DNA of 50,740 bases from a virus. A program made the translations under genes and the position numbers. Below are positions 1,555 through 40,189 of the stretch, piece by piece. The notes beneath the pieces were generated by a model. It did not search any database. It saw nothing but the letters and a program-made list of their open reading frames with translations, and was not told the origin of the DNA. The DNA lies in IMG/VR virus record IMGVR_UViG_3300030419_000468, positions 1 to 50,740 of that record; one strand, 5' to 3'. Numbering within the stretch: position 1 is the stretch's first letter; every line of letters starts with the position of its first letter.

Positions 1555-2150
1555 CTTCTTCTCTTTCCGTGTTTACTTCTTCCTTCGCTTTCTCTTCTAA
1601 CTCTTCTTAATAAATTCTGTTGTTTCTTTTTTGCTCTTTGTAATACTATATTGTTGACACCATCAAGATAGTTCTCTCCATCCATATGTTCCATCTCATG
1701 CATGAATATTCTTGCTGTAATTCCACTAAATCTTTTTACAATTGGTTCACCAGTTGGAGAAAAGAATCTAACTCTTATCATTTGAGGTCTTTTCTTTTTA
1801 ATATACAGACCAGGATAACTTAAACATCCTTCATCCATTAATACTTCTTCACCAGCATGAGCAGTTATTCTTGGATTGAAACAAGCAAAACCTGGATCTC
1901 CTTCTGTGACAAATACTCTGTATGGTAATCCTAATTGGTTAGCAGATAAACCTATCCCTCCAAAGTATCTCATATGAGCTAACATATCCGTAGCTAACTC
2001 TACTGGATCTACTGGTGGATTTTTTAAATCAAAGTTTTCTAATTTAGTTGATAGTAATGGATGGTTCGCTGGAACAAGATTCCATTTCTTCTCGAATTCT
2101 ACTTTCGTTGCATGTGCTGCTGCTTTCTTTGGGTCTACTTCTACCGTCAT
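1551..2150 (-). CDS. def: Peptide deformylase
   Basis: All three deformylase motifs are present: GIGLSANQLG (residues 65-74), EGCLSYPG (107-114, metal-binding Cys) and HEMEH (151-155, metal-binding His pair and catalytic Glu). The enzyme removes the formyl group from N-terminal methionine of new proteins in the cytoplasm. Phage deformylases are known from marine T4-like phages. This one has a long N-terminal lead of about 45 residues and a strongly basic C-terminal tail (KKKQQ..RRVRR..GKRRR) that bacterial enzymes usually lack. The start overlaps gp46 by four bases (ATGA). A sigma70-like promoter inside gp46 (2235-2263) could express def and queE apart from the recombination genes. Confidence 0.93.
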   Translation of the reverse strand: MTVEVDPKKAAAHATKVEFEKKWNLVPANHPLLSTKLENFDLKNPPVDPVELATDMLAHMRYFGGIGLSANQLGLPYRVFVTEGDPGFACFNPRITAHAGEEVLMDEGCLSYPGLYIKKKRPQMIRVRFFSPTGEPIVKRFSGITARIFMHEMEHMDGENYLDGVNNIVLQRAKKKQQNLLRRVRRESEGRSKHGKRRR

Positions 2151-3862
2151 TCCACTATCCTAGAAAAGTTTTTATGCTTCTCGAATCTCACTACGTTTGA
2201 GAATTTATCAAGAAGCTGATCTGTCTTATGGGATATTATAATGATATTTGTATCAGAAGTCAACTCTTTTATTATTTTTAAGAATTCATCTGTACCTTGA
2301 GTGTCTAAACTACTATCAAATATCTCATCCATAATTAGAATATTTGTACTGGCACTATTCTTTAACTTAGCTATTGCTCTCCAAGTAAACAATAATGCTA
2401 AATCTATTCTCATTTTTTCACCTTCAGAAAAAGATGCGTATGAGAATTCATCTCTGTGTCTGGATCTTATAGTCTCTTTAAAGTCTTCATCTAAATTAAA
2501 GTCTACAAAAAACTCCATTGCAGCCAAGTATTTATTAATCAACTTGTTCATTATTGGAACGTACTGTTTAATAATTCTAGCCTTAATACCAGTATCCATT
2601 AACAATGTTCTTGCTGAGTCATAAACAGATTGCTGTTTCTTTAAATCTGTTTTCTGTTCTTTTTGATCTGCTATGTCTTGATTAAGTTGATCTAGTCTTG
2701 CTGTTGCTTCTTCTTCGTCACCATCTTCAAAAGACTTTGAAGCCAATTCATTATTAAGTCCTTCAAGTATTTCCTCAAGGACAATGATGGAAGTTCTTTC
2801 ATTTGCCCGTTCCGAGTCAACACGCTTTGCTTCTTCTTTGATTGATTTAAGCCTTTCCATTCTAGTCGAGTTAGTGGCAATTTCTTCTTCGAGCTGCTTA
2901 AGGCCGCTCGTTGTTTCGGTGATAGCTGTATTGGCTTCATCTTGTTTTGTTGCTCTATACTCATCTGTAATCTCCTGACCGCATGTACTACATTCAGTAT
3001 TATCTTCATAAAACTTTAACTGCTTTTTAAGATTAGTAATCTTTCTTTCTATCTGTCCTTCTAAGGTTAGGAATTGTTGAATTCTATTGGAGACAGATTC
3101 TAATGGTTCACATTGTTTAAATAATTCTGCAGCTTCTATTTCAAGTTCTTCCATCTGCTCATTATGAGCTCTGATTTGAAATTCTGTATCATCAATCTTA
3201 TGTTTGAGCTCAGCAAGCTGAATGTCTACATTTTCTTTTACTTTATCTATATAGGTTTCCTGGACGCTAACCTTTTCATCTAATAAATTTAATTGATAGT
3301 CTACTTCTTGCAAAGCATTCTTATTCAATGCTATCTTATCTTTTAATAGACCAGCCATTGTACTAAAGATTTGTATATCCAATAAGTCTTCTATAACTGT
3401 TCTTCTATCAACAGTACTTAATTGCATAAATGGAATAAAGTTTCTCGATCCTAATACTACAATCTGTGTAAATGATTTGTAGCTCATCTTTAGAATGTTC
3501 TGTTCTAATATCTTTTGATAGTCTTTTGTATGTGCATCCTGGTTAAGTAGTTCACCGTTTTGATATACTTCAAATGTTCTTGGTGCATGTCCTCTACATA
3601 CTTTATATTTGTTAGATCCTATTCTAAATTCTACTTCTGTTTTAAGATGTTTCTTATTAACACTATTAACTAATTGTGGATTGTTAACCTTTCTAAAAGG
3701 TTTCATATACAATGCATATGACAATGCATCTAGGAATGTAGATTTACCTGCTCCGTTCTCACCAACGATTAATGTATCTTGATAAGACTCTAAGTCTAAT
3801 TCTGTCCATGTGTTTCCATACGACAGGAAATTCTTGAATCTAATCTTCTCAAATATTATCAT
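2147..3862 (-). CDS. gp46: Recombination endonuclease subunit gp46 (SbcC/Rad50-like ATPase)
   Basis: This 571-residue protein has the layout of T4 gp46: a Walker A motif GENGAGKST at 34-42, long coiled-coil arms, a zinc hook CSTC at 291-294, a second coiled coil, a signature FSEGEK near the C-terminus and Walker B ILIMDE around 508-515. Size matches T4 gp46 (about 560). With gp47 it forms the Mre11-Rad50-type nuclease that resects DNA ends for recombination-dependent replication and degrades host DNA. The ATG at 3862 follows AAAGG by seven bases. It lies 9 bases after gp47 and overlaps def by four bases. Confidence 0.96.
   Translation of the reverse strand: MIIFEKIRFKNFLSYGNTWTELDLESYQDTLIVGENGAGKSTFLDALSYALYMKPFRKVNNPQLVNSVNKKHLKTEVEFRIGSNKYKVCRGHAPRTFEVYQNGELLNQDAHTKDYQKILEQNILKMSYKSFTQIVVLGSRNFIPFMQLSTVDRRTVIEDLLDIQIFSTMAGLLKDKIALNKNALQEVDYQLNLLDEKVSVQETYIDKVKENVDIQLAELKHKIDDTEFQIRAHNEQMEELEIEAAELFKQCEPLESVSNRIQQFLTLEGQIERKITNLKKQLKFYEDNTECSTCGQEITDEYRATKQDEANTAITETTSGLKQLEEEIATNSTRMERLKSIKEEAKRVDSERANERTSIIVLEEILEGLNNELASKSFEDGDEEEATARLDQLNQDIADQKEQKTDLKKQQSVYDSARTLLMDTGIKARIIKQYVPIMNKLINKYLAAMEFFVDFNLDEDFKETIRSRHRDEFSYASFSEGEKMRIDLALLFTWRAIAKLKNSASTNILIMDEIFDSSLDTQGTDEFLKIIKELTSDTNIIIISHKTDQLLDKFSNVVRFEKHKNFSRIVE
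2235..2263 (-). promoter_or_regulatory. Sigma70-like promoter inside gp46
   Basis: On the minus strand TTGACT (2258-2263) and TATAAT (2235-2240) are separated by exactly 17 bases, the same geometry as the intergenic early promoters here. It lies within the last part of gp46, with the -10 box about 85 bases before the def start. Function is inferred; coding constraint could have produced it by chance. Confidence 0.45.
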
Positions 3863-3871
3863 AATATACCT

Positions 3872-4939
3872 TTACGAAACTTGTAGTGCTTCGTCATACA
3901 AAGCTCTTAACAAACTTTGTAATTCATTCTTTTCATTTTTTATTTCTAAATTGTCAACGTATGTGTTGAGTATAGTTAATGTATCTTCTGCTTCATCAAT
4001 TATATCTTCATCATCTTCTAAATCTAAATGCAAATGATCTTGTACTACTTGTACTTGCATTGGATTAACTTGTTCTAATTTTTCTATATAAAGATCAAAC
4101 AGTGTAGGATTGTCTTTCGTCTTTATAATAACTTTAACTACTTTATTTTCAAACTTGCTAAAGTCTTTTGTCTGTTCTAATAATCCAGCCATATCTAAAT
4201 TTGTATCATCATACCATATCTTATTAAATAATGTATGTGGATTAGGAATAAATTCTATTGTTCTTGTATCAGTATCTAGTATATGAAAACCTTTTTGATC
4301 GTCATAGTCACTCCAAGTCATTTCATATTCTGTTCCTAGATAATTTATATTACCATGTGCTGACTTATGATGGAAGTGTCCACTACAAACTAAATCAAAT
4401 TTCTTTAACCAACTATCTGATATACCATGATCTAATACAACATGCTTACTCATTTCATATCCAGATAATTCTAAATGACCTAATAGTATCTGTGCATCAG
4501 TTTTATCAGCCATAACAAATGTCTGCTCTTCATTAGCATCACATATCCAAGGTACCAACATTATTTTTGATCCATCAAACTCTACAACATCTGGTTGAAC
4601 ATATGTAGTAATGTTATCATATTCTTCTAATAATAAATCAATACTATTAACTTCTAATGTATTTTTATAAACACTATCATGGTTTCCAACTATGACATGC
4701 ATATGTATTCCTCTATCAGCTAGAGGTTGAAAGAACATTTCTTTTGAATACTTTAATGATGTAAATGAAATATATTTTCTTCTATCAAATGTATCACCTA
4801 AATTAATAACTGTATCAATCTTTCTCTTATCAATCTCTGGAAAGAATACATTATCATAAAATTGCTTCATATGTTGAGCAATCTTCTGGCTATCGTTTCT
4901 TGCACCAAAGTGCTGATCTGTTACTAATGCTATTTTCAT
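3872..4939 (-). CDS. gp47: Recombination endonuclease subunit gp47 (Mre11-like nuclease)
   Basis: The calcineurin-like phosphoesterase motifs appear in order: TDQHFG with D8 and H10, NLGDTFDRR with D49, GNHDS with N86 and H87, then GHLE and GHFHHK, which complete the two-metal site. Length (355) is close to T4 gp47 (339). It is the nuclease partner of gp46, acting on DNA ends during recombination and replication. The C-terminal part is acidic and helical, as expected for the region that binds the ATPase coiled coil. The start overlaps the stop of the SET-domain gene as ATGA, so translation is probably coupled. Confidence 0.96.
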   Translation of the reverse strand: MKIALVTDQHFGARNDSQKIAQHMKQFYDNVFFPEIDKRKIDTVINLGDTFDRRKYISFTSLKYSKEMFFQPLADRGIHMHVIVGNHDSVYKNTLEVNSIDLLLEEYDNITTYVQPDVVEFDGSKIMLVPWICDANEEQTFVMADKTDAQILLGHLELSGYEMSKHVVLDHGISDSWLKKFDLVCSGHFHHKSAHGNINYLGTEYEMTWSDYDDQKGFHILDTDTRTIEFIPNPHTLFNKIWYDDTNLDMAGLLEQTKDFSKFENKVVKVIIKTKDNPTLFDLYIEKLEQVNPMQVQVVQDHLHLDLEDDEDIIDEAEDTLTILNTYVDNLEIKNEKNELQSLLRALYDEALQVS

Positions 4940-5328
4940 ATTGTTGCTAAATTTTTTGGTCCATCAAAGTTATCAATTATATCTTCATATCCATCTGTAT
5001 AAAAACAAGTAAGTTCTGTTCCTTTCTTTATAGGTATTATTGCCCACATGTGAGTAGCAATTCCTAATTGTGTTGGTCTCTCAGGTCTTGGATGTCTTAA
5101 CAGAGCACAGTTAGGAGTTTCTGAATGATTAATAAATCCACCCAATGGCGTCCTTGCATAATCTCTTCCCATGTGTCTCTCTTGATCTGGTATAAGAGCT
5201 ATATGTGTTATACCTAAGTATGAGCCAGCTGGTATATCTATTACTGCATATAGACCATGGCCTTTGCCTTCGCTTATCTTAACCTCTACACATTCTGGCA
5301 GAGCTTTATAATGATGCTCTTTAAACAT
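4936..5328 (-). CDS. SET-domain protein (putative protein-lysine methyltransferase)
   Basis: This short protein (130 residues) shows the SET-domain hallmarks: GKGHGLYAVIDIPAG at 21-35 (N-terminal SET strand and S-adenosylmethionine site), GGFINHSETPNC at 63-74 (the NHS..PNC motif), and IKKGTELTCFYTDGY at 100-114 containing the usual tyrosine. SET enzymes methylate lysine side chains of proteins. It is a bare SET core without the flanking cysteine-rich pre- or post-SET modules. It lies between gp55 and gp47, overlapping both neighbouring frames by a few bases, so it is expressed with the late sigma and recombination nuclease. The substrate is unknown. Confidence 0.82.
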   Translation of the reverse strand: MFKEHHYKALPECVEVKISEGKGHGLYAVIDIPAGSYLGITHIALIPDQERHMGRDYARTPLGGFINHSETPNCALLRHPRPERPTQLGIATHMWAIIPIKKGTELTCFYTDGYEDIIDNFDGPKNLATI

Positions 5329-5518
5329 TCTTTGCTTTTTCCATCAATTCATCTAACGCATCCCAATCATGGACACCTAATACGGTGACCTCAAACTTAT
5401 CGTCTTCTAGGAATTTTACTTCATGTGGCAAGTCATAACCTTGCTCGTGAAGTACTTGAGCGTTAACTGTGAATTGTCTGAAGTCGTCTTTACTTAGTAG
5501 TATCGTTTTTCTTTCCAT
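5321..5518 (-). CDS. Conserved-looking small protein of unknown function
   Basis: From the ATG at 5518 this is a 65-residue protein beginning MERKTILLSKDDF. The frame reaches back to a TTG at 5533, but the ATG at 5518 has GAGGA five bases before it, so I chose that. It overlaps the end of gp55 and the start of the SET gene, typical of coupled translation. Composition is mixed, with no membrane segment; the C-terminal half (HDWDALDELMEKAKNV) looks helical. I recognise no family. It sits in the late-sigma/recombination operon. Confidence 0.65.
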   Translation of the reverse strand: MERKTILLSKDDFRQFTVNAQVLHEQGYDLPHEVKFLEDDKFEVTVLGVHDWDALDELMEKAKNV

Positions 5519-6077
5519 TCTCATCCTCAACAAAATTTTCTAAATTAACCTTCTTCGTTTTTCTAGCAGCTTTCTTTTCTGCTTCTTTCTTTTCAAAGTT
5601 TTCAACGAAGTCGGTCATGTATGGCGTATGTAAATTAATATACGCTCCTTGATCTCCTTTCGAACCTTGCTCTCCGTGTTCAGCTAGTTCGTCAAAGACC
5701 AATGACCTTTCCAATGACTTGTGTTTGATATAGAGTTGTTTCTTCTCTCTTTGTATTCTTCGTAAAAATGCATAATATATAATTTGTGTAAAGTACGCAA
5801 AAGGGTTAGTTGATTTCTCTGGATTGAAGTTGCCAATATAATTGACACAGTTTTCAATACCATCACTAATCATCTCGTCCCTGTATGTGTAGTTTATGAA
5901 GTTAGGCTTAGTTGATAATCTTGTTGAGATCTTCAATAGGCACTCACCAATGTACTCAGGTATTCTAGGTTTATCGTCTCCAGACTCCTCAGCTTCTTTT
6001 ACTGCATTGAGATATTCGACCATCTCAGCATACAGCTTTTTATTGTCTACGTAATGTTCACTTTTTGCTCTAGGCAT
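5490..6077 (-). CDS. gp55: RNA polymerase sigma factor for late transcription, gp55
   Basis: The core matches T4 gp55 closely: IPEYIGECLLKISTRLS, KPNFINYTYRDEMISDGIENC, then NPFAYFTQIIYYAFLRRIQREKKQLYIK. This corresponds to the sigma region 2 that binds core polymerase and opens the -10 element. Length (195) is near T4 gp55 (185). The protein directs host polymerase to TATAAATA late promoters, many of which precede structural genes in this window. A lysine-rich tail follows the core. The gene starts 3 bases after the stop of the LSm-like gene and overlaps the small gene that follows it. Confidence 0.96.
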   Translation of the reverse strand: MPRAKSEHYVDNKKLYAEMVEYLNAVKEAEESGDDKPRIPEYIGECLLKISTRLSTKPNFINYTYRDEMISDGIENCVNYIGNFNPEKSTNPFAYFTQIIYYAFLRRIQREKKQLYIKHKSLERSLVFDELAEHGEQGSKGDQGAYINLHTPYMTDFVENFEKKEAEKKAARKTKKVNLENFVEDENGKKNDTTK

Positions 6078-9443: not shown

Positions 9444-9478
9444 TGTAGTATTATACTACAGGAGTATTTATATGTCAA
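9444..9478 (-). promoter_or_regulatory. Consensus sigma70 promoter with overlapping late promoter and palindrome
   Basis: On the minus strand TTGACA (9473-9478), 17 bases and TATAAT (9450-9455) form a perfect sigma70 promoter. The spacer contains TATAAATA (9465-9472), the T4-type late box. A perfect palindrome, TGTAGTAT-T-ATACTACA (9444-9460), encloses the -10 box and resembles an operator or a leader hairpin. It lies 28 bases before the YEIRADLL gene, and the -35 box overlaps the stop of the 49-residue gene upstream. Confidence 0.8.
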
Positions 9479-26281: not shown

Positions 26282-26289
26282 TATAAATA
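26282..26289 (+). promoter_or_regulatory. Late promoter, plus strand
   Basis: TATAAATA on the plus strand, 28 bases before the only plus-strand gene. It is one half of a divergent pair with 26297-26304. Confidence 0.75.
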
Positions 26290-26296
26290 CTATTAC

Positions 26297-26304
26297 TATT
26301 TATA
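26297..26304 (-). promoter_or_regulatory. Late promoter, minus strand, before neck operon
   Basis: TATAAATA on the minus strand, 40 bases before the 109-residue gene at 26257. Only seven bases separate it from the plus-strand box, so the two polymerases would have overlapping footprints. Confidence 0.8.
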
Positions 26305-26317
26305 AGAGGAATTAGTT

Positions 26318-26653
26318 ATGCAATTGCGAAATGACTTCAAATACGCGTTAATAGAAGAATATAAAACTTACTGGAACGCATACGACAACCCAAACGAATT
26401 TTACTCTGATATACTATCTATGGATTCTAGTATGTTCGAGCACTTTGCAGCACGAAGAATGTCTGCAAAAGGAATGCAAGGATTGACAGAACTTAGATTA
26501 CTTGACCAAAACACTTTATGGTTTGTAATGTATGGTAAAACTAAACGTGCTTTAGAATGCTTAGAAAGTATTAATCAAGATAAAATAGAATTCTTAGGAC
26601 ATAAAAATAGATTAGAAGTTAAAAGAAAACTAATCGATTTACAAGATCAATAA
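26318..26653 (+). CDS. Hypothetical protein, the only plus-strand gene
   Basis: A 111-residue, mostly helical, charged protein (MQLRNDFKYALIEEYKTYWNAYDNP, then MFEHFAARRMSAKGMQGLTELRLLDQNTLWFVMYGKTKRALECL). I do not recognise it. AGAGGA lies seven bases before the ATG and a late box 28 bases before, so it is probably a late gene. Its TAA stop abuts the stop codon of the convergent oxygenase-like gene with no terminator between them. Reversed orientation suggests a recent insertion or a separately regulated gene. Confidence 0.72.
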   Translation: MQLRNDFKYALIEEYKTYWNAYDNPNEFYSDILSMDSSMFEHFAARRMSAKGMQGLTELRLLDQNTLWFVMYGKTKRALECLESINQDKIEFLGHKNRLEVKRKLIDLQDQ

Positions 26654-28807: not shown

Positions 28808-31800
28808 TTAAGCTGTTCTAATCCATAATTTTAATGTGCTGATTGTCTCTACTGCTGATTGTACAGTTGATCCAGTCCATGTTTTACTATATGCAGCACC
28901 TAACCAGTTAGATTGATACTGTGCAGTAAATTGACCTTCGTATGCTTTCTCCCACTGTTTTACAAATTGACCAGTGTATTGAGCTTCATAGTTAGTTGTG
29001 AATGTGCCTTCATATACTTTTGTATATGTACTTTCAAATTGTCCAGTATATACACCTTCCCATAACTTCTGATATAGTTTACTATACTGACCAGTATATG
29101 CTTTTTGATATTGCTTTGTCCAGTTTTGTGTAAATGAACCTTCATACTGTTTTTCATATGCTTTAATATATGTTCCAATATATGCTCTATCAAATTGTCC
29201 TTCGTATGCTTTAGTATACTGTCCTAAGTACCAACCTGTATATTGTCCTAAGTATTGACCAGCCCATGCTTTAGTAAATTGTTGTAAGAATGTTCCTTCA
29301 TATTGTCTATTGAATGAACCTTCAAACAGTGCTGAGTATGAAGCAATGTAATCTTTATTATATTGTCCTACATACTGACCAACATATGCTTTAGCAAATT
29401 GTCCTGTAAATTGTCCTTCATACTGGCCAGTGTATTGACCTAGATATGCTTTTTCAAATGCACCTGTAAATTGTCCTTCGTACTGACCAACATACACACC
29501 AGTATATACTCCTTGATAAACATGAGCTCCTTCATACTGACCTAAGTAGGATCTGTCATATACGCCTTCATATGTTTTTGTATATTGTGTGCTAAACTGA
29601 CCTGTATATTGTCCATCATATGTTCCACTAAATGTTCTTGTTCCTTCCCATAATTTAGCATATGCTTTAACATAATTTAAACTTACATATGTTGTTGCAA
29701 ACGCACCTTCAAAACTTCCAGTGTATTGACCAGTATATGTTCTTGTTCCTTCAAACTGACCAGCGTATTGTTTTACATAACTTACTACATATAATTTTTC
29801 AAAGTTGTTTGTGTATTGACCAGTAAATGTTCTTGTTCCTGTATATGCTTTTGTATATTGTTTTGTAAATGCACCTTCATATTGTTTACCATATTGACCA
29901 GTATATGTTCTAGTTCCTTCATATTGTCTAGCATATACGCCTTCCCAGTTTCTAGCAAATGACCCTTCATATAATTTTGCATAATCTTTTACATAGTTCT
30001 TAGTATATGCTCTTATATACTGACCGGTGTATTGAGAAGTAAATACTCCTTCATATACTCCTTCATAAAGTTTAACATAAGTCTTACCATACTGACCTAT
30101 AAACTGTTTGAGATATTGTGTTGTAAATGCTCCTTCATAAGCCTTAGTGTAGTTTGTATCAAACGAACCTTCATATAATGCTAAGTATTGTTTTCCAAAT
30201 TGTCCTTCATATGTTTTAACATATAGTCCAGTGTATGTTTTAGTGTATGATGTCGAGAACACTCCTTCGTATGATTTTTCATAATTGGTTCCATAAGATC
30301 CATCATATGCTTTTTCATAGTTAGTACCAAATTGACCTGAGTAGTCTTTACTATAGTTGGCTGCAAACACTCCTGCGTATGCTCCTTCATATATTGTTCC
30401 AAACACTCCTTCGTATTGTGTATTGAATACACCTTCAAATTGTTTTGCATAGTTAGTTGTGAACACTCCTTCATATTGAGTTACGTAATCTTTAGCATAG
30501 TTAGTTGTATACACTCCTTCGTATGTTCCAACATAATTAGTTCCATATACTCCTGTGTATTGTTCTGTAAAGTCTTTTTGATAGTTTGTAGAGTATACGC
30601 CATCAAAGTTTTTAGCATAGTTAGTACCATACTGAGTCTCATATTGGCTAGTGTAATCTTTTTGATAGTTAGTTGTAAATACACCTTCGTATTGATCTGT
30701 ATAGTTTGTTTCAAATGCTCCTTCAAAAGCTCCTGCATATTGTTGTCCAAACTGACCAGTATATTGTCCTTCGTATTGTTTTAGATATTGCTTAACATAT
30801 TGTTTAGCATATTGTGTTACAAATGAACCGTCAAATGAACCTTCATATACCTTTGCATATAATCCAACATAAACTTTACCATATGTTGTATCAAATGATC
30901 CTTGGAACACTCCACCGTATATATTTGTATATTGGCCAACATATGCTTTCTGATATTGTGTTGTAAACAACCCAGCATAGTCTGTTGTGAATCCGCCCTC
31001 ATATTGAGTTATATAATCTTTAGAATAGTTGTCTGTAAACTGCCCTGTAAACTGTCTGTCGTAATTGCCCTCATATTGTTTAGCATATTGTGTGACATAG
31101 TCCTTAGCATAGTTGTCTGTAAATGAACCTTCGTATGTTTTAGTCCATTGATTAATATAAAGTTTAGCATAGTTAGTTGTATATGTTCCTTCGAACACTC
31201 CACCATATACATTTGTGTATTGACCAACATAGTTCTTAGCATATTGTGTAGCAAATGAACCTTCGTATTGTGAGGTGTATGCTCCTTCCCATGCTTTGGC
31301 ATAAGTTGAGGAATATTCTTTTTGGTATTGATCTGTAAACTGTCCTACATATGTTCCAGTAAATTGTCCTTCCCATTGGCCAGTGTATTGTCTTTCCCAA
31401 TTCTTAGTATAGTTTGTAGTAAATAATCCTACATAATTCTCTGTATATGTTCCAGTGTAATCTCTTGCATAGTTGGATGTAAACTGTCCTTCGTATTGTT
31501 TACCATACTGACCAACATAATTCTTTTGATAGTTCTCTGTATACGTTCCTTCAAATACACCACCGTATATGTTAGTATATTGTCCTACGTATGCTTTTGC
31601 ATATTGAGCGGTATAATCTTTAGCATAGTTAGTTGTAAACTGTCCAACATAATTTTTAGAGTACTGGCCAACATATGCTTTCTGGAATACTCTTTGATAA
31701 TCTGTTGTAAATACTCCTGTGTATTGATCTGTAAATGATCCTTCAAATTGTCCAGCATATTGAGTGACATAATCTTTAGCATAATTGGTTGTGTAATCTT

Positions 31801-34800
31801 TAGCATAGTTTCTTGTGTATGTTCCTTCAAATACACCACCGTATATGTTTGTATATTGTCCTACATAGTTCTTAGTATAGTTGGTTGTAAACTGTCCTGT
31901 ATATTGAGTTGTGTATACTCCTGTATATTGGCCTGTATATGCTTTCTGCCAGATCTTAGTATACTGTCCAGTATATCTCTTGGTGTAATTTCCTTCATAT
32001 GCTTTTGTAAATTGATTTGCATATGCTTTTTGGAAGTTAGTTGTATATACTCCAGTGTACTGTGATCCATATACTCCTTCATATGCTTTTGTATATTGAG
32101 TAGTATATTGTCCTGTATATTGACTTTCATATGTACCATCATACTGTCTAGTAAAGTTTGTTGTATATCTCTTCGTATAGTTAGTTGTGTATGTTCCACT
32201 AAACTGACTTTCATAAACTCCTTCATATGCTTTTGCATATTGTTTTGTATACTGTCCTGTATAGTTTCCAGTAAACTGTCCTGTATACTGACCACTATAT
32301 GCTTTTGAGTAAGATGTGGCATACTGACCTTCGTAGGCTCTTGTGTATGTTGTAGCATATTGTCCACTGTATGCTCTTGTGTAAGATGTACTATATGACC
32401 CAGTAAACTGTCTTGTATAGGTTGTATTATATGATCCAGTATACTGTCTTGTATAGTTCCTTGCATACTGACCACTATATGTTGTTGAGAAGTATCCTGT
32501 ATATTGTCCTGTATACTGTCTTGAGTAGTTTCCAGTATAACTACCTGTGTATTGAGAGTTATATGTTCCACTATATGTTGTTGAGAAGTATCCTGTAAAC
32601 TGTCCTGTATATTGTACTTGCGCTGAGAAGTATCCTGTATACTGTGCTCCACCTTCTCCACCACCAGCGAACTGTCTTGACCACGTACCACCAGATGAAA
32701 ATTGTTGTGACGGCCCAGGTCCACTAAACTGTCTAAGACCCATATAGGCTTTGTCATTCATTTCAAAGACTCTTGAACCAGTGTATTGAACTGTTGTTGA
32801 TCCAGTGTAGTTTAAACCAGGACCAGTAAACTGATTAGAGTATTGTGTTGTTCTTGTGACTCTGGTATATGATCCAGAATAACCTCTTGTCCATTGTTTA
32901 TTATATGTTCCACTATATTGTCTGGTATAGTTAGTTGAGTATTGAGTTGTTCTTGTGACCCTACTATAGTTTCCAGTATAATGTCTGGTATAGTTAGTTG
33001 AATACTGCCCGCTGTATGCTCTTACAAAATTGTTTGCATATGTTCCGCTGTATGCTCTTGTATAACTTGAATTATATGATCCAGTATACTGTCTTGTATA
33101 GTTTGATGAGTATGAACCAGTATACTGTCTTGTATAGTTTGTTGAGTATGAACCAGTAAACTGTCTTGACCACTGTGTGCTATATGTCCCACTATATTGT
33201 CCTGCATAGTTAGAACTATATTGTCCAGTAAACGCTCTTGTGTATTGACCAGTGTATGCTTTTTGATAATTGGTATCATACTCTTTTGTATAGTTAGTTG
33301 CATACTGTCCTACGTATGCTTTTGTATATTGACCTGCAAATTGTTTAGCATAGTTTGTATCATAAGAACCAACATACTGTTTTGTATATTGTCCTGTAAA
33401 CGCTTTTTGGTATTGTGTTGTGTATACTTTTGCATAAGTTGTATCATATGAACCAGTATATGCTCTATCATAGTTTCCACTATATTGTACATCATAATTT
33501 CTTGTAAATACACCTTCGTAAACACCAGTGTATGCTTTTTCATATACCCCAGTATATTGTTTAGCATAGTTAGTAGCAAAAGATCCTTCCCACACTCTAT
33601 CATATTGACCAATGTATTGGCCAACGTATGCTTTCTGATATTGTTTTACATATTGTTTAGCATATTGTGCTACATAGTTTTTAGCAAACTCGTTTGTATA
33701 TTGGCCAATCCATGCTCTTTGGTATTGTCCTGCATATGCTTTTTGGAATGCTTTTATATAATCAGTTGTGTATATACCCTCATATGTTTTAGCATATGAA
33801 CCTTCATATGTTTTTTGATATTGCGCTACGTAGTTTTTCTCGTACTGTGTTGTAAATGATCCTTCCCATATTCTATCATATTGGCCTACATATTGACCAA
33901 CGTATGCTTTTTCATATTGTCTAGCAAATGTACCTTCGTATGCTTTTGTATATTGTCCGGCATATTGTTTAGCATATTGTTTAGTATAAACACCTACGTA
34001 TGCTTTTTGGTACGAACCTTCATATTGTTTAGCCCATTGTACTAGATAAGTTTTTGTATACTGATCGGCATATTGACCAGCCCATTGTCTAGCATAAGCG
34101 CCTTCCCATTGCTGCGCATATTGTGCTGCCCATTGTACTGTCCATTGTGCTGTGTATGCTCCAACATATGCTTTTTCATATACACCAACATAATCTTTAG
34201 TATATTGAGTAACAAATGAACCTTCCCATACTCTATCATACTGACCAACATATTGTCCAGTATATGCTTTCTCATATTGTTTTACATAATTCTTTTCATA
34301 TTGTTTTTCATACTGACCTATCCATGCTTTCTCATATTGTTTTACATAATTCTTAGCATAGTTGGTTGTATATTGTCCTGTAAATCTTCCTTCGTATTGA
34401 CCCGTCCATTGTTGTTGATATTGTGCTACATAATTTTTAGCATATTGACCAACATATAATTTTTGATATGCGCCCTCATATTGTTTTGCATAGTTCGAAG
34501 TAAATGATCCTTCCCATATTCTGTCATACTGTCCTACGTATTGACCAACATATACTTTTGTATATCCTGTTCCAAATTGTCCTTCATATTGTTCTGTATA
34601 TTGGCCAACATAACTACCGACGTAGTTTTTAGCATAATTTTCTGTATAGTCTTTAGAATAGTTGGCTGAAAACTCTCCAGCATAAACACCCTCATATTGT
34701 TTTAAGAAATTGCTTTCATACTGACCGACGTATGTTTTTGTCCATACCTTTTCATATTGACCAACATATGCTTTTTGATAATCTTTAGCATAGTTTTTTG

Positions 34801-37324
34801 TAAACTGCGCAGTGTATTGTTTTAAGAATTGTTTTACATATGATCCACCATATGCTTTTAAGAATTGATTTACATAATTCTTTTCATATACACCAGTGTA
34901 TTGTTTTAAGTATGAAACATCATATTGACCAACATACGCTTTCTGATATTGTGCTACATAGTTCTTAGCATACTGTCCTGTGTATGCTTTTAGATATTGT
35001 TTTGTGTATTGGCCAACATATGATTTTTGATACAGACCAGCAAATACTGTTCCCCATTGACTTAAATATATTCCTGTCCATTGATTGATCCAAGTCTTAG
35101 CATATATTCCTGTATACTGTTGTAAGTAGTTTGTCGAGTAAGTTCCAGTAAACTGTTTAAGATATTGAGTAGCATATGCGCCAACATAATCTTTACTATA
35201 TTGTTTTGACCAATCACTTAAATAATTCTTTTGATATGCTCCAGTGTATTGTGCTTCCCAAACTCTTTCATATTGACCGACATATGCTTTTGTCCATTGA
35301 TTTTCGTAAACACCAACATAATCTTTTGCATATGCTTTGATGTAAGCACCTTCAAAATTCTTTTCGTAATTCTTTTCCCACTGACTTGTATATTGTCCTG
35401 TGTATGCTTTTTCGTATACTCCTACAAATAATTTATTATATGATGTTGTATAGTCTTTTGCATATGCACCTGTATATTGACCTACGTAATTTGCTTCTAA
35501 GTAATAGCCAGTAAACTGCTCACTCGCACTATCATATTGTCCTGTAAATGTTCTTGTTCCTTCGTATTGTTTAGTATACTGACCAAGATACGCTCCAGCA
35601 TAGTTGGTTTCATAAGAACCATTATATGTTCTTGTTCCTTCGTATTGTTTAGCCCATTGTTTTAAATAATTTGTAGCAAGATATGCTTTTGAAAATTGAG
35701 CTGTATATTGTCCTGTAAATGTTCTTGTTCCTTCAAATTGTCTTTCGTATTGACCAATATATTGTGCAGTCCAGTTTCCAATATACAGCTTCTGGTATTG
35801 ATCTGCATACTGTCCTGTGTATGTGCGGGAACCACTGTATGTGCCTTCGTATACGCCCGTATACTGCTTTGTATATTGCTCAGTGTACTGACCTGTGTAG
35901 TTACCCGTAAACGCGCCTTCAAACTGTTTTACGCCAGTATAATTCCCAGTGTAGTTCCCTGTAAACGAACCTTCAAATTGTTTACTGAATTGCGCTTGCC
36001 ATTGAGTAGTAAAAGATCCTTCATATTGTTTTGAATATTGACCTGCAAATTGTTTTGCATATTGTGTTACAAACGACCCTTCAAATGTTCCTTCATATGT
36101 TTTGGTATATGCTTTTTCAAAAGCACCTTCATATTGTCCAACATATGATCCTGTATACTGACCAATAAATGCTCCAGTATATTGTGCTGTAAAGTATCCT
36201 GTATAACCACCTTCGTATTGTTTATTGAAAGCACCTTCGTATTGTTTTTCGTATACGCCTGTGTATTGTTCTAACCAACCTTTTGAATATTGAGCAGTCC
36301 ATTGTTTTGTAAACTGGCCAACATATGTTCCCATGTATTGTTTTTCATAGTTAGTTAAGAATGTTCCTTCATACTGCTTAGTATAATTTCCAGTAAAGAC
36401 TCCAGTGAACGCTCCAGTATATTGTTTGTTATAATCTTTTGAGTACTGGCCGATATATGCTTTTTCATATTGTGTAGCAAATGTGCCTTCGTATACTTTT
36501 TGGTATTGCTTAGTGTAAATACCAGACCATTGCTTTTCCCAGTTGGCTGCATAATCACCAACATAGTTTGCTGTATATCCTATATCAGCTAATGTGTTTC
36601 TTTTATCTAATATTGTTCCACCAACTTGTACCCAGGTTTCTCCTGCGCCAGCTGGATTGGTTGCTGCTATTTTATATTGACCTATTCCTGTTGAGGATAT
36701 TTGATTTCTTAATCTTGCTGCTAAAGTTTTTATCTCAGCATCTGTCATTTCTTTAATCGCGCCACCATCAAGTTTAGATGTCCTTACAGTGGATGGTGCA
36801 GAAACACCCGTTGTCTTTCTCCAAAGTGTATATGTTGTGTTGGCTGTTAGGGATGAGTCAACAATTGTGGATCCTGTACTTGTATAAAGGCTATTGTTGG
36901 GGTTGCTTTCTGCAAGTATGTAAGATCCTAGACCATTTGAAGTTAGATTCGCAAGTGCTCTTGAAATAAGAACAGTGTTTAGATTATTACTATGCTCTGA
37001 TGCATAGCCACTGTCGTTGAGGAACAACGGATACACTAAAGATGTTTCTGCGACCGAACTGAGATTTTGTTTAAGCGTGTAGTTAGTTGAGGTTATTGCA
37101 TTTGTTGTGGGGTGTGTTCCAATACTCTCTGTTCTGATAGTATCGGTAAAGGTGCCCATTGATGTACCATCACCATTAATGTTGATTGTACCTGAGCCAG
37201 TAGTGCTTGTAGAAAACTCAGTTAGAATTTGATGGACGGCGTAATCCATCTCGGTAGTTTGCATCTCTTGCAATCCGAGAAAAGTACCGCCTCCGGTTGT
37301 TTTTATTCTAAGTGGGTTCCCCAT
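28808..37324 (-). CDS. Giant aromatic-tetrad repeat virion protein (2838 residues)
   Basis: The largest gene in the window. Residues 1-249 are a non-repeat head (MGNPLRIKTTGGGTFLGLQEMQTTEMDYAV...), of the type I recall at the N-terminus of virion structural proteins in marine T4-like phages. From Y250 to W2816 the chain is almost unbroken four-residue repeats with an aromatic residue (Tyr, Phe or Trp) at position 1 and mostly Gly or Lys at position 3, for example QYTGQYTKQYEGTF. A Ser/Arg- and Gly-rich centre lies near residues 1480-1560, and two irregular zones (462-613, 2468-2603) carry GTRT insertions. The final 22 residues are non-repeat. It is probably a long tail or side fibre. A late promoter lies 51 bases upstream, inside the preceding gene. 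Function is not shown. Confidence 0.85.
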   Translation of the reverse strand: MGNPLRIKTTGGGTFLGLQEMQTTEMDYAVHQILTEFSTSTTGSGTININGDGTSMGTFTDTIRTESIGTHPTTNAITSTNYTLKQNLSSVAETSLVYPLFLNDSGYASEHSNNLNTVLISRALANLTSNGLGSYILAESNPNNSLYTSTGSTIVDSSLTANTTYTLWRKTTGVSAPSTVRTSKLDGGAIKEMTDAEIKTLAARLRNQISSTGIGQYKIAATNPAGAGETWVQVGGTILDKRNTLADIGYTANYVGDYAANWEKQWSGIYTKQYQKVYEGTFATQYEKAYIGQYSKDYNKQYTGAFTGVFTGNYTKQYEGTFLTNYEKQYMGTYVGQFTKQWTAQYSKGWLEQYTGVYEKQYEGAFNKQYEGGYTGYFTAQYTGAFIGQYTGSYVGQYEGAFEKAYTKTYEGTFEGSFVTQYAKQFAGQYSKQYEGSFTTQWQAQFSKQFEGSFTGNYTGNYTGVKQFEGAFTGNYTGQYTEQYTKQYTGVYEGTYSGSRTYTGQYADQYQKLYIGNWTAQYIGQYERQFEGTRTFTGQYTAQFSKAYLATNYLKQWAKQYEGTRTYNGSYETNYAGAYLGQYTKQYEGTRTFTGQYDSASEQFTGYYLEANYVGQYTGAYAKDYTTSYNKLFVGVYEKAYTGQYTSQWEKNYEKNFEGAYIKAYAKDYVGVYENQWTKAYVGQYERVWEAQYTGAYQKNYLSDWSKQYSKDYVGAYATQYLKQFTGTYSTNYLQQYTGIYAKTWINQWTGIYLSQWGTVFAGLYQKSYVGQYTKQYLKAYTGQYAKNYVAQYQKAYVGQYDVSYLKQYTGVYEKNYVNQFLKAYGGSYVKQFLKQYTAQFTKNYAKDYQKAYVGQYEKVWTKTYVGQYESNFLKQYEGVYAGEFSANYSKDYTENYAKNYVGSYVGQYTEQYEGQFGTGYTKVYVGQYVGQYDRIWEGSFTSNYAKQYEGAYQKLYVGQYAKNYVAQYQQQWTGQYEGRFTGQYTTNYAKNYVKQYEKAWIGQYEKQYEKNYVKQYEKAYTGQYVGQYDRVWEGSFVTQYTKDYVGVYEKAYVGAYTAQWTVQWAAQYAQQWEGAYARQWAGQYADQYTKTYLVQWAKQYEGSYQKAYVGVYTKQYAKQYAGQYTKAYEGTFARQYEKAYVGQYVGQYDRIWEGSFTTQYEKNYVAQYQKTYEGSYAKTYEGIYTTDYIKAFQKAYAGQYQRAWIGQYTNEFAKNYVAQYAKQYVKQYQKAYVGQYIGQYDRVWEGSFATNYAKQYTGVYEKAYTGVYEGVFTRNYDVQYSGNYDRAYTGSYDTTYAKVYTTQYQKAFTGQYTKQYVGSYDTNYAKQFAGQYTKAYVGQYATNYTKEYDTNYQKAYTGQYTRAFTGQYSSNYAGQYSGTYSTQWSRQFTGSYSTNYTRQYTGSYSSNYTRQYTGSYNSSYTRAYSGTYANNFVRAYSGQYSTNYTRHYTGNYSRVTRTTQYSTNYTRQYSGTYNKQWTRGYSGSYTRVTRTTQYSNQFTGPGLNYTGSTTVQYTGSRVFEMNDKAYMGLRQFSGPGPSQQFSSGGTWSRQFAGGGEGGAQYTGYFSAQVQYTGQFTGYFSTTYSGTYNSQYTGSYTGNYSRQYTGQYTGYFSTTYSGQYARNYTRQYTGSYNTTYTRQFTGSYSTSYTRAYSGQYATTYTRAYEGQYATSYSKAYSGQYTGQFTGNYTGQYTKQYAKAYEGVYESQFSGTYTTNYTKRYTTNFTRQYDGTYESQYTGQYTTQYTKAYEGVYGSQYTGVYTTNFQKAYANQFTKAYEGNYTKRYTGQYTKIWQKAYTGQYTGVYTTQYTGQFTTNYTKNYVGQYTNIYGGVFEGTYTRNYAKDYTTNYAKDYVTQYAGQFEGSFTDQYTGVFTTDYQRVFQKAYVGQYSKNYVGQFTTNYAKDYTAQYAKAYVGQYTNIYGGVFEGTYTENYQKNYVGQYGKQYEGQFTSNYARDYTGTYTENYVGLFTTNYTKNWERQYTGQWEGQFTGTYVGQFTDQYQKEYSSTYAKAWEGAYTSQYEGSFATQYAKNYVGQYTNVYGGVFEGTYTTNYAKLYINQWTKTYEGSFTDNYAKDYVTQYAKQYEGNYDRQFTGQFTDNYSKDYITQYEGGFTTDYAGLFTTQYQKAYVGQYTNIYGGVFQGSFDTTYGKVYVGLYAKVYEGSFDGSFVTQYAKQYVKQYLKQYEGQYTGQFGQQYAGAFEGAFETNYTDQYEGVFTTNYQKDYTSQYETQYGTNYAKNFDGVYSTNYQKDFTEQYTGVYGTNYVGTYEGVYTTNYAKDYVTQYEGVFTTNYAKQFEGVFNTQYEGVFGTIYEGAYAGVFAANYSKDYSGQFGTNYEKAYDGSYGTNYEKSYEGVFSTSYTKTYTGLYVKTYEGQFGKQYLALYEGSFDTNYTKAYEGAFTTQYLKQFIGQYGKTYVKLYEGVYEGVFTSQYTGQYIRAYTKNYVKDYAKLYEGSFARNWEGVYARQYEGTRTYTGQYGKQYEGAFTKQYTKAYTGTRTFTGQYTNNFEKLYVVSYVKQYAGQFEGTRTYTGQYTGSFEGAFATTYVSLNYVKAYAKLWEGTRTFSGTYDGQYTGQFSTQYTKTYEGVYDRSYLGQYEGAHVYQGVYTGVYVGQYEGQFTGAFEKAYLGQYTGQYEGQFTGQFAKAYVGQYVGQYNKDYIASYSALFEGSFNRQYEGTFLQQFTKAWAGQYLGQYTGWYLGQYTKAYEGQFDRAYIGTYIKAYEKQYEGSFTQNWTKQYQKAYTGQYSKLYQKLWEGVYTGQFESTYTKVYEGTFTTNYEAQYTGQFVKQWEKAYEGQFTAQYQSNWLGAAYSKTWTGSTVQSAVETISTLKLWIRTA
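29516..29923 (-). repeat. GTRT irregular zone, C-terminal arm
   Basis: Residues 2468-2603 of the giant protein. Four [ET]GTRT[FY] steps, a five-residue YVSLN step and EGAHVY break the tetrad period, matching the style of the N-terminal zone. Confidence 0.8.
30905..31867 (-). repeat. Four TN[IV]YGGVF boxes in the C-terminal arm
   Basis: Boxes of the form YVGQYTN[IV]YGGVF end at F codons starting at 30905, 31193, 31553 and 31829 (residues 2140, 2044, 1924, 1832). In protein order the gaps are 23, 30 and 24 tetrads, the reverse of the other set. Confidence 0.85.
32640..32880 (-). other. Gly/Pro-rich centre of the giant protein
   Basis: Encodes the only long non-tetrad stretch in the repeat domain: TGPGLNYTGSTT, FEMNDKAYMGLRQF, SGPGPSQQFSSGG and AGGGEGGAQ. 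The mirror centre of the repeat landmarks (32703.5) falls between two Gln codons of GPGPSQQ. Confidence 0.8.
33578..34540 (-). repeat. Four DR[IV]WEGSF boxes in the N-terminal arm
   Basis: Boxes of the form Y[VI]GQYDR[IV]WEGSF end at F codons starting at 33578, 33854, 34214 and 34502 (residues 1249, 1157, 1037, 941). In protein order the gaps are 24, 30 and 23 tetrads. Confidence 0.85.
35486..35941 (-). repeat. GTRT irregular zone, N-terminal arm
   Basis: Residues 462-613 of the giant protein. The tetrad period is broken by VKQ, SGSRTY, three EGTRT[FY] six-residue steps, a five-residue YLATN step, DSASEQ and a YLEAN step. Confidence 0.8.
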
Positions 37325-37330
37325 TAATCA

Positions 37331-40189
37331 CTAAGCCTTTAATTTAAACGCGCTATCCCCAAACACGCTACCAGTATTTATAAAACTTACTCTGCTTGCA
37401 TCATAACCTTTTATGGCCGATCCAGGCAAGCCTCCGTCTCCTGATATTGCGTATTGAGAATAGTGTGTTCCAGGATTAGCAACATTCTGACCTGAATCGC
37501 TATCATCATTGTAGCCTCCAGCGCCTGCTCCTAACTGACCTAGTCTCCCACCATTTCCTCCGTGTATGCCTAATGCAGTTGTTGCATTAGATCCGTTTCT
37601 ATCTGAACTACTTTCGGATACGAAAGCAGTATTATTCCATCCAGCGCCAACACCGCCAGCGCCACCTCTACCAATATTTCCAGCGACAGGGTATCCACCA
37701 CCACCGCCTCCACCGCCACCACCGGCGATTTTACCATAGTTTTCAACATAAAGTTCAACACCTGTTCCTAACTGAATTGCATCCCCACCATTACCACCAG
37801 TCTGATTAGTTGAGAATGTATCTGTATTACCTGATGAAGCTCCAGCTGAACCAGACATACCTATAATGTTGCCATCTGGCTTAACTAATATTCTAACTCT
37901 ATGTGGAACGGTTCCATATATTGGACTGAATCCTTCTAATGAAAGAGCTGCTGTTGTATTAGCTGAATATACATATCCACCACTAATTGTTATATTAACC
38001 ATCTGAGGTCTAGTACCTCTACTCTTTCCTAATCCATCTAATACTGATGCTAAATTATAATTAGCTGTATTACTTGTTATTGAAATATCTGTTCTTTCAT
38101 AACTAACGTGTGTTGTTTTCCATTGACCGTCTTCTTTAACTGATACTCTACCAACATCTCTCCAAGCATCATTTTCTTTGACTTTCATTTCTTTAACTTG
38201 TTTCCAAGCTCCAGCTTCTTTAAGTTTTGCTACTCCACCTTCGTCTGTTAGTTCTCCAGTCTTAGTATTTGCTGCTGTTGTTGTTGTAACATAGCTTGTG
38301 TGGAATTGTTCACCACCTGCGTAGTTAGAAGTGTAATGAGCTGTTCCTGTAAACGAACCACTTACTCCTTGATACACACCACCGTAAATTTTATGCCATG
38401 CTCCTTCATATTGTTTGTCATAGTTGCCAAGATATAATTTTGAATATTGTGTACCAAACTGTCCTTCATAAACACCTGTGTACTCTTTAGTATATTGTTT
38501 TGTAAATGCTCCTTCATACTGTCCTAGATACACTTTTGTATATTGGCCAGTATATTGTTTTACATACTGTCTGGTAAATGTTCCTTCATAAATTTTACTA
38601 AAGTCTGAACTATACTGTCCTGTGTATTGACCTACCCATGCTTTTGTATATTGTCCAACGTATGCTTTTTCATATGCTTTTGCATACTGTGCACCAAACG
38701 TTCCTTCAAACTGTTGATTGAATACTCCTTCGTATGTTGCACCATCAAAAGTTCCAGTAAATGAATGAGGTACTAAGCCACTAAACTGACCAGTACCGTC
38801 TGTACTAGTTCCATATGTTGCAAGGCCTAGATATTGTCCTGCCCACGACTTCGTATATTGTCCTGACCATACTTTTGCAAATATTTTATTATAATTTTTC
38901 TCATATGCTTTTTCATATTGTTTAGTATAATGTGCTATGTAATATAATATACCACTGTATTGTCTTTGGTAATTCTTTGCAAAATTTCTAGTATATTGTT
39001 CTGCATAGTTAGTAGTCCATGTACCCTCGTAGGTTGTAGCCCATTGGTGCGTACTAGTAGTTTCTGAATATGATGCATAATTTTTAGCGAACGGTCTTGA
39101 ATAGACACCTGTCCAAGTTGGAACCCATTGTCCAACAAATACTCCTGTATAGACTGAACCGCCCTCAGGACCTCCAGAGCCAGATTCATAAACACCAGTG
39201 TAGTCTTTTAGATATCCTCCTGATGGCCCTTCAAAGTATCCTTCATACGGAACACCGCCGGTATATTGTCCCATGAAAGTTTCCGGCTCACCTGGAAATA
39301 ATTCTCCATGATAGTTTCCAGTGTATTGGTTGGAACCAGATACATATACGCCTACAAAGTCTGCAACTGCTTCAAATGTTCCTTCAAAATTTCCAGTGTA
39401 ATCTCTTGCATAATTTCCGGTCCATTGTTTTAAATATGCTTTTTCAAATTGTCTTACATACTGACCTACGTAGCTTTTCTGATATTGTCTAGTATAATTC
39501 TTTTGATATTGTCTAACATAATTTTTAGTATAGTTGGCAGCTAGTTCACTATATGTGCTATATACTTTTTCATATTGTTTAGTGTAGTATCCTATAAATG
39601 TTCCTTCGTATTGAGCTGCGAAATCTCCTTGATACTGTCTATCATATGTTCCTTCCCACTGTCTATTATAGGGACCACCATCAAATTGTCCTTCAAATTG
39701 TCTTACGTAAGCACCTTCATATGTTCCAACATATTGACCTGTAAATGAACCAGTGTATTGTCCTGTCCATGTCTTTGCGTATTGTTTTATATACTGAGTA
39801 GCAAAAGACCCTTCATATGTTGCTCCAAAATATCCTTCGAATACTCCTTCAAAAGTTCCTGTGTAAGTTTTAGTATATTGTCCTACATATGCTTTTTCAT
39901 ATTGTCCAGCAAATACTCCTTCATATTGAGTAGCAAAAGATCCTTCAAATTGTGATGAATATTGTTTAGCGTATTGTGTGGTAAACACTCCTGTATATTG
40001 ACCAGTATATTGTTTACCATATTGCTTGACATAGTTGCCAAGATATGTTGCTGTATATTGTGCTAGATAAGTTTTAGTGTATGCACCTAGATAATGATGA
40101 ATAGGAGTATCTGTTATGGCACCCTCGTACGAGGAGGCAAACTGTCTGTCTGCTCCTGCGTATGCTCTTGCGTAATTTATCTCTGCCAC
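37331..40189 (-). CDS. Aromatic-tetrad fibre with Gly-rich adhesin-like C-terminus (952 residues)
   Basis: Starts at a GTG (40189) after GGAG. Residues 6-633 are the same aromatic tetrads as in the giant protein, with a Gly/Pro-rich break at about 285-346 near the repeat midpoint. Residues 640-700 carry a KxxxxAWKxV / VKEDGQWKT motif found in phage tail proteins. The C-terminus has long glycine runs (AGGGGGGGGGGY near 800, then GNIGRGGAGGVGAGW and GIHGGNGGRLGQLGAGAGGY) recalling the polyglycine receptor-binding domain of gp38-type adhesins. It is probably a tail-fibre or adhesin protein. It ends six bases before the giant gene. Confidence 0.8.
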   Translation of the reverse strand: MAEINYARAYAGADRQFASSYEGAITDTPIHHYLGAYTKTYLAQYTATYLGNYVKQYGKQYTGQYTGVFTTQYAKQYSSQFEGSFATQYEGVFAGQYEKAYVGQYTKTYTGTFEGVFEGYFGATYEGSFATQYIKQYAKTWTGQYTGSFTGQYVGTYEGAYVRQFEGQFDGGPYNRQWEGTYDRQYQGDFAAQYEGTFIGYYTKQYEKVYSTYSELAANYTKNYVRQYQKNYTRQYQKSYVGQYVRQFEKAYLKQWTGNYARDYTGNFEGTFEAVADFVGVYVSGSNQYTGNYHGELFPGEPETFMGQYTGGVPYEGYFEGPSGGYLKDYTGVYESGSGGPEGGSVYTGVFVGQWVPTWTGVYSRPFAKNYASYSETTSTHQWATTYEGTWTTNYAEQYTRNFAKNYQRQYSGILYYIAHYTKQYEKAYEKNYNKIFAKVWSGQYTKSWAGQYLGLATYGTSTDGTGQFSGLVPHSFTGTFDGATYEGVFNQQFEGTFGAQYAKAYEKAYVGQYTKAWVGQYTGQYSSDFSKIYEGTFTRQYVKQYTGQYTKVYLGQYEGAFTKQYTKEYTGVYEGQFGTQYSKLYLGNYDKQYEGAWHKIYGGVYQGVSGSFTGTAHYTSNYAGGEQFHTSYVTTTTAANTKTGELTDEGGVAKLKEAGAWKQVKEMKVKENDAWRDVGRVSVKEDGQWKTTHVSYERTDISITSNTANYNLASVLDGLGKSRGTRPQMVNITISGGYVYSANTTAALSLEGFSPIYGTVPHRVRILVKPDGNIIGMSGSAGASSGNTDTFSTNQTGGNGGDAIQLGTGVELYVENYGKIAGGGGGGGGGGYPVAGNIGRGGAGGVGAGWNNTAFVSESSSDRNGSNATTALGIHGGNGGRLGQLGAGAGGYNDDSDSGQNVANPGTHYSQYAISGDGGLPGSAIKGYDASRVSFINTGSVFGDSAFKLKA
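37375..37382 (-). promoter_or_regulatory. Late promoter for the giant protein, inside the preceding gene
   Basis: TATAAATA on the minus strand, within the last codons of the 952-residue gene (FINTG), 51 bases before the ATG at 37324. Confidence 0.6.
38340..40175 (-). repeat. Aromatic tetrad repeats of the 952-residue protein
   Basis: Roughly 600 residues of [YFW]-x-[GK]-x repeats, with short irregular steps at about residues 169-174, 213-220, 411-421 and 454-477, and a longer Gly/Pro-rich break at 285-346 (about 39152-39337). Confidence 0.85.

Follow-up and report, generated by a model that had tools for sequence, protein, structure and literature searches.

An open reading frame (ORF) in the window, i.e. 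the whole stretch of DNA that was analyzed, a 50,740-base virus record, was found to encode a SET-family protein with the SET fold and conserved active-site residues. Judging from this fold and these residues, its activity would be SAM-dependent methylation of lysine. We consider it likely that the protein is a minimal SET-fold SAM-dependent protein (lysine) methyltransferase, putatively competent, which is carried as virus-specific mobile cargo and has a host protein as its target.

The SET gene and its neighbors

The SET ORF is situated on the minus strand at 4936-5328, coordinates that were confirmed exactly, and consists of 130 codons with an ATG start. In the 130-aa product, GxG is found at aa 23-25, RTPLGGFINHSETPNC at aa 59-74 and the catalytic Tyr, assigned by alignment, at aa 110. 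Also on the minus strand are a gp55-like late sigma factor (5490-6077; phrog_234, E 9.9e-63), a 70-aa ORF between gp55 and SET (5321-5533) without any Pfam, PHROG or NCBIfam match, a gp47/SbcD-like nuclease subunit (3872-4939; E 4.9e-110) and a gp46/SbcC-like ATPase subunit (2147-3862; E 1.9e-166). The SET start overlaps by 8 bases the 70-aa ORF that follows gp55, and the TGA stop overlaps the ATG of gp47. The 70-aa ORF occurs in relatives both with and without SET. Gene labels were assigned by eye, except for gp55, gp46, gp47, UvsW, UvsY and gp17. The terminases nearest to that of the window are those of cyanomyophage and related marine T4-like phages.

Elsewhere on the minus strand of the window, a 2838-aa ORF (28808-37324) is found next to one of 952 aa (37331-40189). 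The former and much of the latter consist of a degenerate repeat of about five residues, rich in Tyr/Phe, Gly and Lys (e.g. QYTGQYTKQYEG). These repeat-built ORFs are probably tail-fibre-like proteins, and strikingly simple ones.

Since homologous frames in related phages show dN/dS ratios of 0.28-0.39, the SET ORF is more than a chance frame. The pairwise Nei-Gojobori estimates, some of them with dS near saturation, were 0.28, 0.34, 0.39 and 0.32 for SET (against loci L003, L092, L002 and L105, respectively), 0.04-0.15 for gp55, 0.08-0.12 for gp47, 0.06-0.07 for UvsW and 0.16-0.33 for orf143. SET is thereby under purifying selection, evolving several-fold faster than gp55, gp47 and UvsW, and from its ratios it appears to be functional but fast, like orf143. 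A partial relaxation is possible, dN/dS being just moderately low.

Family assignment, fold and active site

The Pfam SET profile matches the window protein with E 4.4e-7 and 30.7 bits, against a curated cut-off of 22.4, and was found in all 35 aligned family members (E ≤ 0.01). In the window protein the match is limited to the C-terminal half of the profile (aa 64-110), while the N-terminal GxG half is visible in a phmmer alignment to NSD2 and in the predicted fold. By employing PHROGs v4, the protein could be assigned to phrog_28741, a family labelled as of unknown function (profile positions 2-94 of 100, E 1.3e-19), which all 35 aligned members match as well; the NCBIfam search of the window protein gave chance matches only. 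An AlphaFold model, with the 35-row alignment as input, had a mean pLDDT of 81.4, with residues 81-83 below 50 and both termini weak. Foldseek against the PDB placed SETD8 best (E 1.7e-6), and the matches in BFVD were SET proteins from giant viruses and uncultured Caudovirales phages; phage SET genes have thus already been annotated as such.

VIA-align of 996 chains ranked vSET of the chlorovirus PBCV-1 (PDB 3kma, 1n3j) first, with Z 10.4 (93 residues aligned at rmsd 2.8), although it is tied with several other SET enzymes whose Z lies within 1 of it. Both vSET and the window protein are compact viral SET proteins that lack sizeable additional domains. The two are 24% identical over the structural alignment (93 aligned), and the profile matches vSET with E 6.5e-7, although KMT2 chains outscore it by profile and it is not among the single-sequence phmmer matches of the window protein at E up to 1. 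The SET domains of SETD8/KMT5A and MLL (KMT2) share the fold and the motifs (profile E 2.9e-10 for KMT2D), but these are cellular multi-domain histone enzymes, unlike the window protein.

Active-site conservation was counted in 184 domains, of which 124 were unique and 120 of these covered aa 59-110. N67, H68 and E105 are invariant among these 120; S69, Y110, R59 and G63 occur in 119 each, and H42 and G25 in 117 each (the latter with three gaps). The exceptions include NHG in L105 and Phe at position 110 in L257. The NHS count is inflated, since the patterns fetching most loci contained NHS; R59, E105 and Y110 were mostly not selected for (except, for E105 and Y110, in the L061 scan, whose pattern was NEEITAFY), and all those matches inspected that came from the phage collection by pattern-free tblastn carry NHS. 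The compact SET core with NHS and Tyr proposed in the sequence-only reading is thus borne out by the above-cut-off Pfam match and the predicted fold, and exceptions to NHS or Tyr among the relatives, which that reading had named as evidence against an enzyme, are confined to single domains in this partly NHS-selected set. Other hallmarks of the clade are an N-terminal Y-x-x-L-P and RTPLGG[FW]xNHS, in proteins of about 100-130 aa.

Distribution and genomic neighborhoods

A tblastn search of 50,697 phage records gave matches in seven records with the window protein as query and in eight with a relative as query. Six distinct phages are represented among these matches, namely P-RSM6, P-SSM7, AG-345-P14, Kolga, MW202744 and PH1, and the named hosts are Prochlorococcus, Pelagibacter and Pseudoalteromonas. 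Viral contigs added 151 relatives, of which 80 were kept.

The neighborhoods are diverse. In P-RSM6, SET precedes two baseplate genes, gp25 and one for a wedge protein; it follows nrdB in P-SSM7 and a gene for an AAA protein in the Pelagibacter phage Kolga, and in none of these three are gp55 or gp47 linked to it within the 7 kb flanks. In the contigs it adjoins genes for a PAAR protein, dUTPase, thymidylate synthase or HNH endonuclease. Since P-SSM7 and the contigs with the order PAAR-SET-gp25 share a SET lineage, the gene has moved even within one lineage. When up to four genes on each side were clustered at 91 loci, no constant genomic partner emerged, as none spans most SET lineages. An HNH endonuclease gene lies directly downstream of SET at 29 loci, but in two SET lineages only (e.g. 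6303-6584 in L034), and gp25/gp6-type genes are near SET at seven loci of three lineages.

Two podophage proteins, of PH1 and MW202744 (phrog_34170), belong to the same SET domain family by profile, but are 250-280 aa long, lack RTPLGG and have an extra N-terminal domain of short tail-fibre/adhesin families (phrog_12032, phrog_24280). The genes for these fusions (L085:6584-7342 and L089:4446-5285) are situated inside the structural module. When the SET part of the podophage protein was searched against the PDB, no match was obtained.

A cellular source was sought with a scan of genomes for a single NHS pattern, which gave two loci, and with a family profile search covering the Alphaproteobacteria, in which 19 of 289 genomes had weak, generic SET matches. 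Scores reached at most 29.8 bits in these alphaproteobacterial genomes, but 33-44 bits for the two podophage fusions and 103-139 bits for the eight compact proteins from phages. Within the genomes sampled, the compact clade is thus restricted to viruses. The best reading of this distribution is that of a virus-specific clade which constitutes mobile accessory cargo of marine tailed phages.

The gp55-gp47 junction

The window arrangement was compared with the best 80 of at least 591 gp55 relatives, i.e. 27 near loci (gp55 at least 75% identical) and 53 more distant ones, many of the loci being near-duplicates, so that the counts do not represent independent events. SET follows gp55 in five of the 27 near loci, with the window's type in L090-L093 (of which L090 and L091 correspond to the contigs L002 and L003 above) and another type in L105. 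In the other 22 it is missing, and in six of these the gp55 match is separated from gp47 by just 3 bases. The 53 more distant loci, a few of which stop before gp47, gave no SET match. The functional coupling of SET to gp55 and gp47 that the sequence-only reading had suggested is thereby not supported, as SET is not constantly present between the two genes among these 80 relatives and has other neighbors in known phages. The Lys-rich tail of gp55, which had been put forward as a candidate substrate, has 8-10 Lys in the six rows with SET (the window included) and 7-10 in the 22 rows without. It shows no co-variation with SET, being conserved in its presence as in its absence, and there is thus no sign that gp55 is the substrate.

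In L105 (3539-3853), a different SET gene, with NHG for NHS, occupies the same gp55-gp47 junction. Its product is 42% identical to the window SET, whereas gp47 is 85% identical, and the tree groups it with L017, L171, L172, L227 and L228 (SH-aLRT 81). As a tree that unites L105 and the window type in one clade was not rejected (p-AU 0.374), an independent second acquisition at this junction is not claimed. In L227-L229, from a different phage group, SET has gp46 on one side and a peptide-deformylase-like gene on the other, so that some attraction of SET genes to the gp46/gp47 module is possible.

Promoters and timing

The late-promoter motif TATAAATA occurs 11 times in the window, against 8.4 expected. 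With 16 of 100 shuffles reaching as high a number, the total is not above chance, and only the placement is telling: perfect copies lie at most 90 bases upstream of nine of the 43 gene starts examined, mostly those of virion genes. No perfect late promoter is found directly before the SET gene, nor between it and position 9465, although one-mismatch sites are closer. At 9450-9478 (minus strand) there is a promoter-like site, by consensus match only, in which TTGACA-17-TATAAT (12 of 12) encloses a perfect TATAAATA at 9465-9472. Upstream of the long operon, at the end of which SET and gp47/gp46 are situated, no other perfect promoter-like site is closer. Because a perfect sigma-70-type site here contains a perfect late site, the SET operon may be transcribed both early and late, for which these motif matches are suggestive only. 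The late timing suggested in the sequence-only reading is thus not supported, given the placement of the perfect late sites and the sigma-70-type promoter that overlaps the one at 9465; of that reading, the SET core with its catalytic residues is supported, while the gp55/gp47 unit, the gp55 substrate and the late timing are not.

A pair of perfect TATAAATA sites, on opposite strands and a few bases apart, is found at 26282-26304 before a divergent gene pair. The plus-strand copy is just upstream of a 111-aa plus-strand ORF at 26318.

Possible roles of the phage SET protein

The reading of SET as a mobile, host-directed methyltransferase implies that the clade would enter and leave genomes at varied places, in the window at the gp55-gp47 junction, where for want of its own promoter the gene would be co-transcribed and translationally coupled with its neighbors. 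Methyl transfer would be SAM-dependent and proceed through the SET lysine channel, as suggested by established SET enzymology together with the fold and residues. The lack of a constant phage partner, the patchy presence and the fast change argue for a host-facing role, and SET probably acts on a host protein, although each genome may encode a phage partner at some other place. That this protein would be hit during takeover we infer solely from the missing phage partner and the fast evolution. Our best guess is a nucleoid or translation protein, by analogy with vSET, which acts on histone H3, and Go1-SET, which acts on MC1-alpha. vSET is reported to be packaged in the virion and to trimethylate H3K27, and the evidence that it shuts off the host is circumstantial (PMC7019647). 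Go1-SET is a prokaryotic SET protein whose own substrate is a DNA-associated protein, although it is a cellular archaeal protein and not phage-borne. Bacteria are not known to have histone H3, and the host of vSET is an alga with histones. In vitro, Go1-SET methylates the DNA-associated MC1-alpha, as described in a paper in which the word "phage" is absent (PMC3980110). A bolder version, which we regard as doubtful, makes the family a prokaryotic counterpart of vSET, i.e. a clade confined to viruses of marine bacteria, spanning podo-, sipho- and myophages, that methylates one conserved host protein. Methylation of such a protein (e.g. a nucleoid or translation protein) would then shut off or redirect the host, and the invariant RTPLGG...H42 face would be shaped for the common substrate.

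It is unlikely that the substrate of SET is instead encoded in the same operon, be it gp55 or the gp46/gp47 nuclease, with methylation serving to adjust late transcription or recombination. The overlapping genes and shared transcription would suit such a role, as would the second, differently branching SET gene that L105 has at this junction and the one beside gp46 and the deformylase-like gene in L227-L229, but most near gp55 relatives (22 of 27) do without SET, none of the 53 more distant loci showed it, the Lys-rich tail of gp55 does not differ between loci with and without SET, and P-RSM6, P-SSM7 and Kolga show no linkage to gp55/gp47 within the 7 kb flanks. Delivery with the DNA as a virion-associated enzyme, as reported for vSET (PMC7019647), would fit the cyanophage members that have a PAAR gene on one side and baseplate genes of the gp25 and gp6 types on the other, and the fusion of two podophage members to a domain of short tail-fibre/adhesin families. 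We nevertheless consider it improbable, as the window gene lies among replication and recombination genes without its own late promoter and other members adjoin nucleotide-metabolism genes. Some SET-fold enzymes methylate histidine, and the family deviates from typical SET proteins around NHS (RTPLGG, and frequently NHSE or NHSN); yet the best structural matches are lysine methyltransferases, which makes methylation of another residue, or of a non-protein amine, very unlikely. Least probable is a decaying or non-catalytic protein that only binds: its faster evolution than that of its neighbors, the NHG of L105 and the Phe for Tyr of L257 would agree with decay, but active-site residues are kept across very divergent members and dN/dS is well below 1.

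Significance

The window SET adds a member to an already known enzyme type, phage SET genes having been annotated before. In the main text of the Kolga paper (PMC8163748), "SET domain" does not occur. The enzyme type is best known from histone biology and is here found in a marine T4-like phage, with the same family present in phages that have cultured hosts, i.e. the Prochlorococcus phages P-SSM7 and P-RSM6 and the Pelagibacter phage Kolga. If the protein is active, a post-translational takeover route for which we found no experimental study of a phage SET enzyme (in the titles and abstract openings listed for papers accessible without subscription) would exist in these viruses, namely the use of protein lysine methylation by bacteriophages.
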